Assembly: GCA_947459205.1 (NCBI GenBank)
Contig: CANHCR010000029.1
Coordinates: 1 to 32,275 of the forward strand
DNA from: Caryophanales bacterium
Lineage (GTDB): Bacteria > Bacillota > Bacilli > Paenibacillales > CANHCR01
DNA length: 32,275 nt
Direction of reading: 5' to 3'
In this document: positions 6,684 to 32,275 of the stretch, piece by piece
Layout: each line of letters begins with the position of its first letter
Position numbering within the stretch: the stretch's first letter is position 1
Position numbers and translations under genes: made by a program
Notes under the pieces: generated by a model
Databases searched by the model: none
What the model saw: the letters and a program-made list of their open reading frames with translations, nothing else
What the model was told of the DNA's origin: nothing

Positions 6684-7535
6684 ATGAGAGACAACAAAAC
6701 AGAGAGAACAGACAGTTTGACAAGGTATTTGCTTGAAATCGGGAAGTATCCGCTACTGACCAAAGAAACGGAGCAGCAGCTTGGCGAGCAAGCGCTGGCA
6801 GGCGACAAAGAGGCCATCTTACAATTGACACAGTCCAATTTGCGGCTCGTCGTCAGTATCGCTAAGAAGTATGTCGGTCGAGGCATGGTTTTGCCGGACT
6901 TGATTCAAGAAGGAAACTTAGGTTTGCTGAAGGCCGCTGAACGCTTCGATCCTCGCATGAACTGCCGCTTTTCAACGTATGCTACATGGTGGATCAAACA
7001 GGCGGTGCTGCGAGCATTGTCTGAGAAGGGGCAACTGATCAGATTGCCAGTCCACATTCACGATCAAAAAGTCAAAGCAGAACGCTTCATTCAAGCGTAC
7101 GCACGCACTCACGATGTGGATCCGAGTCCTGAAGAGATTGCCAGTCATTTAGGTGTGACCGTTGATAAATACATGGAATTGCTTGAATGCGGTTTCGATA
7201 TCGTATCCATCCACTCGCCAATTTCGCCGGATGAGGATGATGAGCAGGGCGAAATCATTGAAGATACAGCCATCCAATCACCCGACAAAGTTGCAGAATC
7301 GAATGATTTGGAACGTGGAATCGTTTCGCTGCTCTCGGTTCTGACGGAAAAGGAAAAACAAGTGATTATCCGCCGTTTTGCACTTTTCGGAAGCGAGCAA
7401 CAGACGCTCCAAGAAATTGGCAAAGACATGTCAATTACGAGAGAACGGGTGCGCCAAATCGAAAATTCGGCTTTGAACAAATTAAAACAGCATCCGAAGA
7501 TTCACACATTACAAGATTATTTGAGTCAAAGTTGA
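6684..7535 (+). CDS. Second primary-like RNA polymerase sigma-70 factor (group 2 type) adjacent to sigA
   Basis: This 283-residue protein has sigma regions 1.2, 2, 3 and 4 but no region 1.1. Region 2 spans about residues 50-120 ([42 protein letters not shown]), region 3 about 120-180, and region 4 about 213-270 with the helix-turn-helix TRERVRQIE at 252-260. Compared with the adjacent SigA, the -35 recognition helix is kept. In region 2.4 the glutamine equivalent to E. coli Q437 is kept (Q106), but the threonine equivalent to T440 is leucine (L109), and the following ADQART reads SEKGQL. It should bind core polymerase and perhaps read a modified -10. The start is ATG 6684 after AGGGGGG. It sits 34 bases after dnaG and 27 before sigA with no terminator between, so it is probably cotranscribed. 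The specific role is unknown. Confidence 0.9.
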   Translation: MRDNKTERTDSLTRYLLEIGKYPLLTKETEQQLGEQALAGDKEAILQLTQSNLRLVVSIAKKYVGRGMVLPDLIQEGNLGLLKAAERFDPRMNCRFSTYATWWIKQAVLRALSEKGQLIRLPVHIHDQKVKAERFIQAYARTHDVDPSPEEIASHLGVTVDKYMELLECGFDIVSIHSPISPDEDDEQGEIIEDTAIQSPDKVAESNDLERGIVSLLSVLTEKEKQVIIRRFALFGSEQQTLQEIGKDMSITRERVRQIENSALNKLKQHPKIHTLQDYLSQS

Positions 7536-7562: not shown

Positions 7563-8669
7563 ATGTCTAATAGTACAGGATCTGGAACGGGTGTTGAACT
7601 CACGCTCCAGCAAGTCAAGGATGATCTGATTGAAGAGGGGAAAAAGAATGGGTTTCTAAACCAAGAGACCATATTCGACCGCCTCGCGACGTTCGATCAA
7701 GATGAAGAGCAGATGGATGAATTTTTCAAAACGCTCGCCGAACAGGAAATTAAAGTCGTCGAGGAAACGGATGCGGTCGCTGAATTGCGTGAAATGGACG
7801 AATTGACGTTCGCCGAAGAAATGGCCAACTCCGTCGGTTTGAAAATTAACGACCCTGTTCGCATGTATCTCAAAGAGATCGGACGTGTGCCGCTTCTTAA
7901 GGCTGAAGATGAGGTCGTGCTAGCGAAACGGATTGAGAATGGTGACGAGGAAGCGAAAAAACGGCTGGCAGAGGCGAACTTGCGTCTGGTCGTCAGTATC
8001 GCAAAACGTTACGTTGGTCGCGGTATGCTTTTCTTGGATCTTATTCAAGAAGGGAACATGGGCCTGCTCAAAGCGGTTGAAAAGTTTGACTACGGCAAAG
8101 GGTATAAATTCAGTACGTATGCAACCTGGTGGATACGCCAGGCGATTACACGTGCGATTGCCGATCAAGCGCGGACGATTCGTATTCCGGTGCATATGGT
8201 AGAGACAATCAACAAGTTAATTCGCGTCTCGCGTCAGTTGTTGCAAGAGAACGGTCGCGACCCGTCGCCAGAAGAGATTGCGAATATGATGGAAATGTCG
8301 GTAGACCGGGTGCGTGAGATTCAGAAAATTGCTCAGGAGCCTGTCTCGTTGGAGACACCGATTGGTGAAGAAGACGATTCGCATCTCGGGGATTTTATTG
8401 AGGACCAAGACGCTGTTGCGCCGGATGATGCTGCCTCCTATGAGTTGCTGAAAGAAGAACTGGAAAATGTCATGCAAGGACTTTCGAAACGCGAAAAAGA
8501 TGTCATCATTTTGCGCTTTGGTCTGCAGGATGGAAGACAACGTACACTTGAGGAAGTAGGCAAGGAATTTAATGTGACACGCGAACGGATTCGCCAAATC
8601 GAGGCGAAAGCATTGCGCAAGTTACGTCATCGCAATCGCAGTGTGCGTTTGCGCGATTTTCTTGATTAA
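7563..8669 (+). CDS. sigA: RNA polymerase primary sigma factor SigA (RpoD)
   Basis: SigA directs RNA polymerase to housekeeping promoters. The 368 residues match the B. subtilis SigA length. An acidic region 1.1 (about residues 10-85) is followed by region 1.2 ([17 protein letters not shown]), region 2 with [14 protein letters not shown] (Q193 and T196 at the -10-reading positions), region 3 from about 205, and region 4 ending in [18 protein letters not shown] and a C-terminal FLD. ATG 7563 follows GGGAG with seven bases between. A strong terminator lies right after the stop, closing the dnaG-sigma-sigA operon. Confidence 0.97.
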
Positions 8670-28191: not shown

Positions 28192-28218
28192 TTAGCACTC
28201 GACTACTATGAGTGCTAA
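28192..28218 (+). promoter_or_regulatory. CIRCE operator (HrcA binding site)
   Basis: TTAGCACTC, nine bases, GAGTGCTAA: an exact match to the CIRCE consensus inverted repeat. HrcA bound here represses the operon until heat shock; GroE normally keeps HrcA active. Confidence 0.98.
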
Positions 28219-28245: not shown

Positions 28246-29271
28246 ATGCTAACGGAGAGACAAAAATTAATTTTGGCCGCTGTCATTATGGACTACGTGC
28301 GCTTCGCCGAACCGGTCGGTTCGCGAACCATCTCACGGCGCGGAGATTTTCAATTAAGCCCTGCGACGATTCGCAACGAGATGTATGATTTAGAAGAGTT
28401 AGGCTATCTGCAACAGCCGCACACCTCGGCAGGGCGCGTGCCATCCGATAAGGGGTACCGCTTTTATGTCGATCACTTGTTGCAGATGGATCAGTGGTCG
28501 GCTGAACATTTGCCTGATTTGCAACAATTTGTGACGGACAGCTTTTTCAGTATCGAACGCGTCATTCAGCAGACAGCGCAAGTGTTGTCGCAAGTGTCGC
28601 AATACACGACGGTCATTTTGAAAAATGAGTCGTCCCGCCAGTTGCTGCGTCACGTGCAGTTGCTGCCGCTGACCGAACGCAAAGCGGTCGTCATCCTGGT
28701 GACGAGCACCGGACATGTCGAGAATAAAATTGTCGAAATTCCGGATGACATTTCACTGGACGAGCTGGTGCGGATGGTCAATGTGATGAATGAGAAATTG
28801 GTCGGCGTGCCACTTTATCAGTTTCGCACGAAGTTATTTGCGGAAATTAGTGAAGTGCTCAACCATAATGTGAATAAATATGAAAAGGCGATGAGTTTCA
28901 TCGAATCGCTTTTGCAAGATGTGCAGGAGCAAAATGTGGTCGTCGGCGGGGCAACGAATATGTTGCGTCAGCCTGAATTTCAGGACGTCGGCAAGGTGCA
29001 GGCGATTTTGGAGCAGTTGGAACAAACGACGAAGTTGGCGCGCATTATCGGGCATCCAGCGGATGGCGTACAAGTGCGGATTGGAACGGAGAACAACGAT
29101 CAGATTTTCAATGACTGCAGCATTGTCACCGCCTCGTATCACTATGATGGGCAAGATCTCGGCACGATCGGTGTGCTCGGTCCGACACGTATGGATTACG
29201 GGAAAGTGATGCGGTTGTTGCAACATTTGTCGACGCAGTTGAGCGAAACGCTCGACCGTATATATAAATAG
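28246..29271 (+). CDS. hrcA: Heat-inducible transcription repressor HrcA
   Basis: HrcA binds CIRCE and represses class I heat-shock genes, including its own operon. From ATG 28246 it has 341 residues, normal for the family. The N-terminal winged helix contains PVGSRTISRR, LSPATIRNEMYDLEELGYL and HTSAGRVPSDKGYRFYVD, all hallmark sequences. The C-terminal region is the GAF-like dimerisation domain with IGTENN and GVLGPTRMDYGKVM. AAGGTGG is eight bases upstream of the ATG. The CIRCE element lies directly ahead, so the gene is autoregulated. Confidence 0.97.
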   Translation: MLTERQKLILAAVIMDYVRFAEPVGSRTISRRGDFQLSPATIRNEMYDLEELGYLQQPHTSAGRVPSDKGYRFYVDHLLQMDQWSAEHLPDLQQFVTDSFFSIERVIQQTAQVLSQVSQYTTVILKNESSRQLLRHVQLLPLTERKAVVILVTSTGHVENKIVEIPDDISLDELVRMVNVMNEKLVGVPLYQFRTKLFAEISEVLNHNVNKYEKAMSFIESLLQDVQEQNVVVGGATNMLRQPEFQDVGKVQAILEQLEQTTKLARIIGHPADGVQVRIGTENNDQIFNDCSIVTASYHYDGQDLGTIGVLGPTRMDYGKVMRLLQHLSTQLSETLDRIYK

Positions 29272-29298: not shown

Positions 29299-29865
29299 AT
29301 GAAAAAAGAGAACACAACAGATGTGAATGTTGAGACTGCTGAGGTTGCTGAAACTGTGGAGGCGAACGAAGCGGCGCAAACAGAAGCAGTGCAAGCGGAA
29401 GTGGTCGAGCGAGTTGATGAATCGGCTGCGTTGAAAGCGCAGGCTGAGGAATGGCAACAAAAGTTGCTACGTTTGCAAGCCGATTTTGATAACTTCCGAC
29501 GCCGCACACGTATGGAAAAAGAAGAGTCAGCCAAATATGCCGCGTTGCCGGTCGTCAGCAAATTGCTGCCGGCGCTAGACAACTTGGAGCGGGCCATCGC
29601 TGCCAGCAAACAATCGCAAGATTTTGACGTATTGGCTAAGGGTGTAGAGATGACCGCACGCTTGTTGCTTGAGGCACTCCAACAGGAAGGCTTGCAGGCG
29701 ATGCAAACGGTTGGTGAGACGTTCAACCCTGAGTTGCATCAAGCGGTGATGCAAATCGATTCCGATGAGCATCGCGATGGTGAAGTCGTCGAAGAATTGC
29801 AACGCGGTTATTTGCTCAAAGATAAAGTCATTCGACCTGCGATGGTCAAAGTAAACAAAGGATAA
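29299..29865 (+). CDS. grpE: Nucleotide exchange factor GrpE
   Basis: GrpE releases ADP from DnaK and acts as a thermosensor of the chaperone cycle. The 188-residue protein has an acidic, disordered N-terminus (about residues 1-40), a long coiled coil with [15 protein letters not shown], and the C-terminal beta domain with [11 protein letters not shown] and [19 protein letters not shown] 29299 follows AAGGAGGTGAG. Gene order hrcA-grpE-dnaK is standard. Confidence 0.97.
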
Positions 29866-29881
29866 TGAGGAGGAAACACAG

Positions 29882-31738
29882 ATGAGTAAAGTAATCGGTA
29901 TTGACTTAGGAACGACAAACTCCTGCGTGTCGGTGATGGAGGGCGGCGAACCGGTCGTTATTGCAAACTTAGAGGGAAATCGTACGACGCCTTCCGTTGT
30001 CGGTTTCAAAAAAGATGGTGAGCGCATCGTCGGTGAGGTGGCAAAGCGTCAAGCAATTACCAACCCGGACCGCACGATTATTTCGATTAAACGTCACATG
30101 GGGACGAATTATTCGGTGAAAATCGATGACAAATCGTTCACGCCACAAGAAATTTCGGCGATGATTTTGCAAAAGTTGAAAGCTGATGCAGAGGCGTATC
30201 TCGGACAAACCGTGACACAAGCGGTCATCACAGTGCCGGCATATTTTAACGATAGCCAACGTCAAGCAACGAAAGATGCGGGCAAGATTGCCGGTCTCGA
30301 AGTGTTGCGGATTGTCAATGAGCCGACGGCTGCGGCGCTTGCTTACGGTTTCGAAAAAACAAGTGACCAAAAGATTCTTGTTTACGATTTGGGTGGCGGT
30401 ACGTTCGACGTCTCGATTCTCGAGTTGAGCGACGGCTTGTACGAGGTACTTGCAACGAGCGGTGATAACATGCTCGGCGGTGACGATTTTGACCAAGTGG
30501 TGATTGATCATCTCGTGACAGAATTCAAGAAAGAAAATGGCATCGACCTCAGCAAAGACCGGGCGGCGGTGCAACGTTTGAAAGATGCGGCTGAAAAAGC
30601 GAAGAAAGAGTTATCGACGGTTTTGACGACGACTATTTCCTTGCCGTTCATCACGATGTCAGATGGCGTTCCGCAACACTTGGAGTTGAATTTGACGCGT
30701 GCGAAGTTCGAAGAGTTGTCGCGTGGTTTGGTTGAGCGCACGCTTGGACCGACACGTCAAGCGTTGTCGGATGCCGGGTTGTCGGCAAGCCAGTTGGATA
30801 AAGTGGTATTGGTCGGTGGATCAACGCGCATTCCGGCAGTGCAGGAAGCGATTAAGCAACTGACCGGCAAAGAGCCGCACAAAGGTGTCAATCCAGATGA
30901 GGTTGTCGCTTGCGGCGCTGCGATTCAGGCGGGTGTATTGACAGGTGATGTCACCAATATCGTCTTGCTGGACGTTACACCGCTTACGCTTGGTATCGAA
31001 ACAGCGGGTGGCATTTGCACGAAAATGATCGAGCGCAATACGACGATTCCAACGAGCAAATCGCAGGTGTTCACAACGTACGCGGACAGCCAAACGTCCG
31101 TTGAAGTGCACGTATTGCAAGGTGAGCGTGAGATGGCTGCAGGCAACAAAACACTTGGTCGATTTACATTGAATGAAATTTTGCCGGCCCCGCGCGGCAT
31201 TCCGCAAATTGAAGTGACATTTGATATCGATGCGAATGGTATCGTCAACGTATCGGCGGTCGACAAAGGTACGGGTAAAAAGCAAAGCATCACCATCACT
31301 GCGTCGACAGGCTTATCGTCTGATGAAATCGATCGCATGGTCAAAGAGGCGGAAGCGAACGCTGATGAAGATCGAAAGCGCAAAGAGTCTGCTGAACTAC
31401 GTAACCAAGCGGATCAACTCGTCTATGCGACCGAGAAAAACTTGAAAGATCTTGAGGGCAAAGTGGACGCGGCGGAGATTGAGAAAGCCAATGCAGCGAA
31501 AGAAAAAGTGAAGCAGGCGCTCACTGGAACGGATGAAGAAGCGTTGAAAGCAGCTGTCGATGAGTTGAGCGAAGTTGTGCAACAGCTTTCGGTGAAAGTA
31601 TACGAGCAAGCGGCGCAAGCTGAGGCTGCTAACCAGCCGCAGGGCGATGCGGCTGCTGATGATGCAAACGGTAAAACGAAAGACAACGTGGTCGATGCTG
31701 ATTATGAAGTGGTGGACGAAGACGGCAAGCAAAAGTAG
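29882..31738 (+). CDS. dnaK: Hsp70 chaperone DnaK
   Basis: DnaK is an ATP-dependent protein-folding chaperone. Its 618 residues match Gram-positive DnaK, which lacks the 24-residue insert near the N-terminus of proteobacterial homologues. The ATPase domain has [23 protein letters not shown] and [11 protein letters not shown]. The linker VLLDVTPL precedes the substrate-binding beta domain, and the helical lid runs to the C-terminus, which ends [20 protein letters not shown] 29882 is preceded by GAGGAGG. The gene is followed 34 bases later by an unusual short J-domain gene instead of directly by dnaJ. Confidence 0.98.
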
Positions 31739-31772
31739 TCAATCACTTTGACTTGAGCGGGGGGGAAGCGCG

Positions 31773-32153
31773 GTGACTCAATTAACACATTACGAAATCC
31801 TTGGAGTAGCCACTGGCGCATCTTCAGAGGAAATTAAAAAAGCACGAAATACGAAGATAAAAGAATTCCATCCCGATCGAAATAAAGCTTCTAATGCTTC
31901 GGAAATGTTGAAGCAAATTGAAGAAATTTACGAAGTTTTATCGAATGCTCAAAGAAGAATGGACTATGATAGAAAGATTGGATTAATTAAGTCCGTTCAG
32001 TCTGATGGGAAGGGTTCAACTCAGCAAGAGTCATCGCAACCGACTTCAACACAATCTGCACGCAAAGAACAAATAAATAATCTTAGTGAAAAAATTAGAA
32101 AAGATATTGCAAATTTAGATCCGCGAAATAAGAAAAATAGTGGATTAAGTTAA
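31773..32153 (+). CDS. Short stand-alone J-domain protein inserted between dnaK and the next J-protein gene
   Basis: A 126-residue protein with an N-terminal J domain (residues 4-68: HYEILGV, helix [13 protein letters not shown], the catalytic HPD at 33-35, and helix III ending at MDYDRKIG). A polar S/T/Q-rich linker (about 73-95) and a charged C-terminal helix (residues 97-114) complete it. It has no G/F region, zinc fingers or C-terminal DnaJ domains, and no membrane segment. The HPD suggests it can stimulate an Hsp70, most simply the adjacent DnaK. GTG 31773 follows a GGGGGGG ribosome site. By hand count the gene is about 35% G+C, far below its neighbours (roughly 50-57% in sampled dnaK stretches), so it looks acquired or under different selection. 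The tail is not recognised. Confidence 0.85.
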
Positions 32154-32175
32154 AATAGTGGGTGGTGGAGCGTCG

Positions 32176-32275
32176 TTGAGCAAGCGTGATTATTATGAAG
32201 TGCTTGGTGTCAGTAAAAACGCCTCGCCAGAAGAAATCAAAAAAGCACACAAAAAAAAGGTGATGGAGTACCACC
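32176..32275 (+). CDS. dnaJ: DnaJ chaperone, N-terminal part (3' end outside window)
   Basis: A J-domain start encoded from TTG 32176 after [22 protein letters not shown] followed by [15 protein letters not shown], truncated at the window edge just before the expected HPD. By position (hrcA-grpE-dnaK-dnaJ) this is the operon's full-length DnaJ. Only about 33 residues are visible. Helix II reads [10 protein letters not shown] rather than the usual AYRKLAKKYH, so identity with canonical DnaJ is likely but not proven. Confidence 0.8.

Follow-up and report, generated by a model that had tools for sequence, protein, structure and literature searches.

Known systems and the locus under study

The dnaK operon is among the most conserved chaperone operons. 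In the case of Thermus thermophilus it carries an extra small gene after dnaJ, whose product DafA has about 78 aa and no J domain. In Shewanella oneidensis, the short J protein AtcJ binds AtcC through a tail of 21 residues, and its J domain works with DnaK (PMC6715715). Regarding the contact between the two chaperones, simulations of the E. coli complex identified Y25, K26, H33, D35 and F47 of the J domain as residues making key DnaK contacts (PMC13012618). Changes at Tyr25 or at the basic residue 26 disrupt function in tested J domains, and F47L is tolerated in A. tumefaciens DnaJ (PMC1906734).

Here we describe a real, intact and compositionally foreign class C J-protein gene at the dnaK-dnaJ junction, which is polymorphic within one population. 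The window, i.e. the whole analysed stretch of 32,275 nucleotides, is contig C29 of a 73-contig, 2.52-Mb assembly and stops inside dnaJ. The protein is unusual, yet of a known kind; its place is unusual as well.

A small J-protein gene between dnaK and dnaJ

The original prediction placed a complete 126-residue J-domain protein with HPD between dnaK and dnaJ, and the reading frame is indeed intact. Its product passes the Pfam DnaJ model PF00226 (69.3 bits vs a cut-off of 27.8, 3e-19), the HPD motif at residues 33-35 being conserved. An intact frame holding a full J domain is not a matter of chance. As PF00226 is the only model to pass its Pfam cut-off, and the G/F region, the zinc finger and the C-terminal beta domains are all absent, the protein belongs by test to class C. 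The frame starts 34 bp past the dnaK stop, has a usable ribosome-binding site of its own, and leaves slightly more than 20 bases to the TTG start of dnaJ (about 32177). The coordinates of these features are collected in Table 1.

Table 1. Features of the dnaK operon and of its dnaK-dnaJ junction in the window.
Feature	Position	Strand	Description
CIRCE operator, the HrcA site, upstream of hrcA	28192..28218	+	perfect, 0 mismatches; chance expectation 0
hrcA	28246..29271	+	named from its place in the operon and its translation
grpE	29299..29865	+	named from its place in the operon and its translation
dnaK	29882..31738	+	
Left flank common to contig C42, dnaK 3' end	31624..31732	+	109 bp, identical
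Stretch found only in the filled allele	31733..32166	+	434 bp, G+C 0.371; 36 bp instead in C42
Small J-protein gene, 126 aa	31773..32153	+	GTG start, TAA stop; J domain at residues 5-66, then a 60-residue tail
Tail, residues 70-126	31980..32150	+	polar linker, then predicted helix at residues 94-115
Right flank common to C42, dnaJ ribosome-binding site and 5' end	32167..32275	+	109 bp, identical; C29 stops here

Between dnaK and dnaJ, no promoter or terminator match was found on the + strand. Taken with the perfect operator before hrcA, this suggests that dnaK and the small J gene probably share a transcript and, as far as can be read from the DNA, that the latter is probably heat-induced along with dnaK.

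Two further features of the region were observed. Firstly, 18 of the 52 dnaK-dnaJ spacers compared (e.g. L020, L028, L035) contain an inverted repeat, GTCAAA...TTTGAC, 3' of dnaK, and the filled allele keeps a short form of it (AGTCAA-TCACT-TTGACT, window 31736-31753); this repeat is possibly an attenuator or an mRNA processing hairpin. Secondly, tandem sigma-70 genes follow dnaG (window 6684-7535 and 7563-8669), another extra paralogue adjoining a master gene. The second of the pair is the housekeeping RpoD (608.6 bits vs a cut-off of 572). The first, with 283 aa, is without the N-terminal part of RpoD and passes no RpoD/RpoS cut-off among those shown.

Regarding base composition, the G+C content of the frame is 0.349, as compared to a mean of 0.517 in nearby coding DNA (sd 0.031, minimum 0.431), the reference being 165 coding chunks from the same region, each of 378 bp and thus equal to the frame in length. 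This computed 34.9% agrees with an earlier hand count of about 35%. The gene is likewise an outlier in codon usage: its GC3 is 0.244 (24%), 28 other genes lying at 0.47-0.65 and dnaJ at 0.512, and among 29 genes it has the poorest codon-usage score.

Two alleles in one assembly

The window ends within dnaJ because the assembly forks there. A second contig, C42, opens on the dnaK 3' end found also in the window and reaches the same dnaJ through a spacer free of genes; its dnaJ is complete (380 aa, above the NCBIfam DnaJ cut-off). In the filled allele the dnaK frame is kept and closes as KQK*, one codon earlier than the KQSK* of the empty allele. The two common flanks are equally long. Their equality as a k-mer signature of the assembler was considered and dropped, as other forks have unequal overlaps; it may be due to chance, and the two-allele conclusion is independent of it.

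To place this fork among the others, contig ends were compared, taking in 103 of the 146. Thirteen pairs simply overlap with identical sequence, and six (C11/C24, C20/C4, C25/C37, C30/C5, C39/C2 and C14/C60) are two-allele forks of SNP type, with 3-13 mismatches over 224-358 bp, or about 1-4% divergence. The dnaK-dnaJ fork is the only gene-sized difference among the ends compared. Given the six other forks, the assembly mixes strains and the small J locus is a presence/absence polymorphism. The simplest reading is therefore a mixed population of close strains, either a metagenome bin or a mixed culture, in which some cells carry the small J gene and others miss it.

It is very improbable that the filled junction is chimeric or that one genome holds both junctions at separate places. 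Such an artefact would fit the fact that both contigs end exactly within the junction, as at an assembler fork. However, the junction is unlikely to be a chimera or to have been joined to reads of foreign origin, because the filled allele supplies an in-frame dnaK stop, one codon early, and the dnaJ ribosome-binding site is retained as well. Two loci in one genome were likewise judged unlikely, since C29 and C42 are the only contigs matched by the dnaK 3' end, which has no other copy in the genome, and both junction flanks continue as long single contigs. The strain forks at six other joins speak against either version.

Occurrence in relatives and origin

The dnaK-dnaJ junction was legible in 52 cases outside this genome (27 from the same order and 25 from named records), and in none of them does a J gene lie between the two genes. 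This bears out the expectation that the standard operon has none in this slot. The gene is not universal and vertically inherited at this locus, as it is not fixed and no relative has it there. The set of relatives is without another member of the window's own family, so that the nearest comparison is a distant one; the best DnaJ match among named records comes from Paenibacillus hemerocallicola (68%). A reading by eye of 100 genomes of the order revealed no second J domain close to that of dnaJ.

A full-length relative or a donor was sought in a collection of genome contigs (genome_contigs), in IMG/VR, in phages and plasmids, and in genomes sampled across the order, class and phylum, yielding generic J domains only. 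The best outside matches are the J domains of DnaJ proteins, at about 50% identity, and in PHROGs only J-domain matches of unknown function were obtained. PADLOC gave no match, and neither did Rfam. Among 71 J domains placed in a tree, the small J protein forms a very long branch of 1.93 changes per site without a supported place. Constraining it with the other small J proteins of the order was not rejected (p 0.519).

An origin within the operon has to be weighed here, namely a partial duplication of the 5' end of the resident dnaJ in this lineage, followed by fast divergence and by loss in some strains. The small J gene lies directly 5' of dnaJ, and both proteins share K28, E31 and R36, which are rare in the order. 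The tree likelihood also rises by 2.2 when the two are held together, although this test does not discriminate (p 0.617) and may be affected by long-branch attraction. Against such a paralogue stand the identity of only about 50% between the two J domains (over 64 residues), the length of the branch and the distance between the two GC3 values. We consider this origin somewhat unlikely.

Altogether, composition favours an outside, A+T-rich source and the shared rare residues favour the resident DnaJ, and we lean weakly towards acquisition. The gene was gained or lost recently, because one strain in the assembly has it and a sister strain is without it at this position. Thus, of the original prediction of an acquired or recently recruited gene, the part on a recent change and a foreign composition is supported, given the two alleles, the composition and the absence of a relative with the gene there. 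An outside donor is less secure: the searches gave none, and the tree of J domains (72 columns) does not reject descent from the resident dnaJ. Either strain may be the derived one.

Predicted contacts with DnaK

Positions in the J domain follow E. coli DnaJ numbering, for which the sequence fragment shown in PMC4063869 served as a check. The helix II contacts differ in the small J protein, which has R25 and N26, while among 69 compared J domains Y25 occurs in 66 and K or R at position 26 also in 66. Position 53 is I, where A is invariant, and position 47 is L; H33 and D35 are kept. These helix II contacts are a functional trait and not strictly needed for membership of the J-domain superfamily. 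With R25 and N26 in place, the HPD motif alone is therefore no guarantee of DnaK activation, which may be weak. Judged by these residues, activation appears plausible, not assured. The resident DnaJ (L001, 556-1698, - strand) also has a helix II that is unusual within its order, the common form there being AYRKLARQYHPDVN.

The altered contact residues, including the change of the invariant A53 to I, could also point to a non-functional or interfering passenger, i.e. a decaying or selfish gene that does no more than disturb DnaK or the expression of dnaJ, or a decoy for DnaK. Its being missing from the sister allele would agree with this, as would the slightly weaker ribosome-binding site of dnaJ in the filled allele (-10.5 vs -12.1 kcal/mol). 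On the other hand, the frame is intact over 126 codons, the HPD motif and the core residues of the J domain are kept, and the gene has a usable ribosome-binding site. A passenger of this kind seems quite improbable to us.

Proposed role

The explanation we prefer, held with a little better than even confidence, is a strain-variable class C co-chaperone gene that one strain of the species has within its hrcA-grpE-dnaK-dnaJ operon, under HrcA/CIRCE control, with a role in docking on DnaK and as an adaptor through its tail. The alleles differ in that a 434-bp A+T-rich cassette stands in place of a short dnaK-dnaJ spacer, and this cassette is most likely a recent gain. The gene would be transcribed together with dnaK and probably translated from its own ribosome-binding site, and the J domain of its product would dock on DnaK in the ATP state. 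Through its C-terminal linker and helix, the protein would recruit a single partner or client to DnaK, comparable to the tail of Shewanella AtcJ.

Regarding this tail, a single-sequence AlphaFold model places a helix at residues 94-115 (mean pLDDT 76, pTM 0.27). A PDB fold search with the model gave no match, because the model is poor, as its pTM indicates. The tail had been called unrecognised, and a homologue search of residues 70-126 found nothing significant in 300 genomes of the order. A specialised DnaK task through the tail, as first proposed, may be suggested, though R25 and N26 make the step from HPD to DnaK stimulation less secure.

A bolder version is doubtful: that genes turn over within the population at the dnaK-dnaJ spacer, and that an orphan J protein with altered helix II, acting as a strain-specific DnaK modulator or dedicated adaptor, was caught just after recruitment. 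A junction with and without a co-chaperone gene in one population provides a natural allele pair for how Hsp70 networks gain J proteins. The pair also bears on the question of whether DnaK is still driven by a J domain that keeps its HPD motif while its helix II is altered.

Comparison with known systems

In the case of DnaJ itself (class A, TIGR02349), the likeness is limited to the J domain with HPD: the small J protein scores 72.3 bits against a cut-off of 377.2 and is without the domains that follow in DnaJ (G/F, zinc finger and C-terminal). The other small J proteins of the order (about 142-167 aa; L129-L140) resemble it in build, with a J domain and a short tail. However, their tails show an (F)ERFFGF...YFG pattern that is absent here, and their genes, in many genomes, lie away from dnaK and do not adjoin dnaJ.

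In the case of AtcJ, the small J protein is not a member of the family (NF050028, 37.9 bits vs a cut-off of 150), and AtcJ belongs to another operon and another phylum. AtcJ has atcABC downstream, whereas the small J gene is without them, is followed by dnaJ and has no adjoining partner gene. Like the small J protein, AtcJ is a short, stand-alone class C protein consisting of a J domain and a short C-terminal tail. AtcJ is the best functional parallel and the tested precedent for the small J protein.
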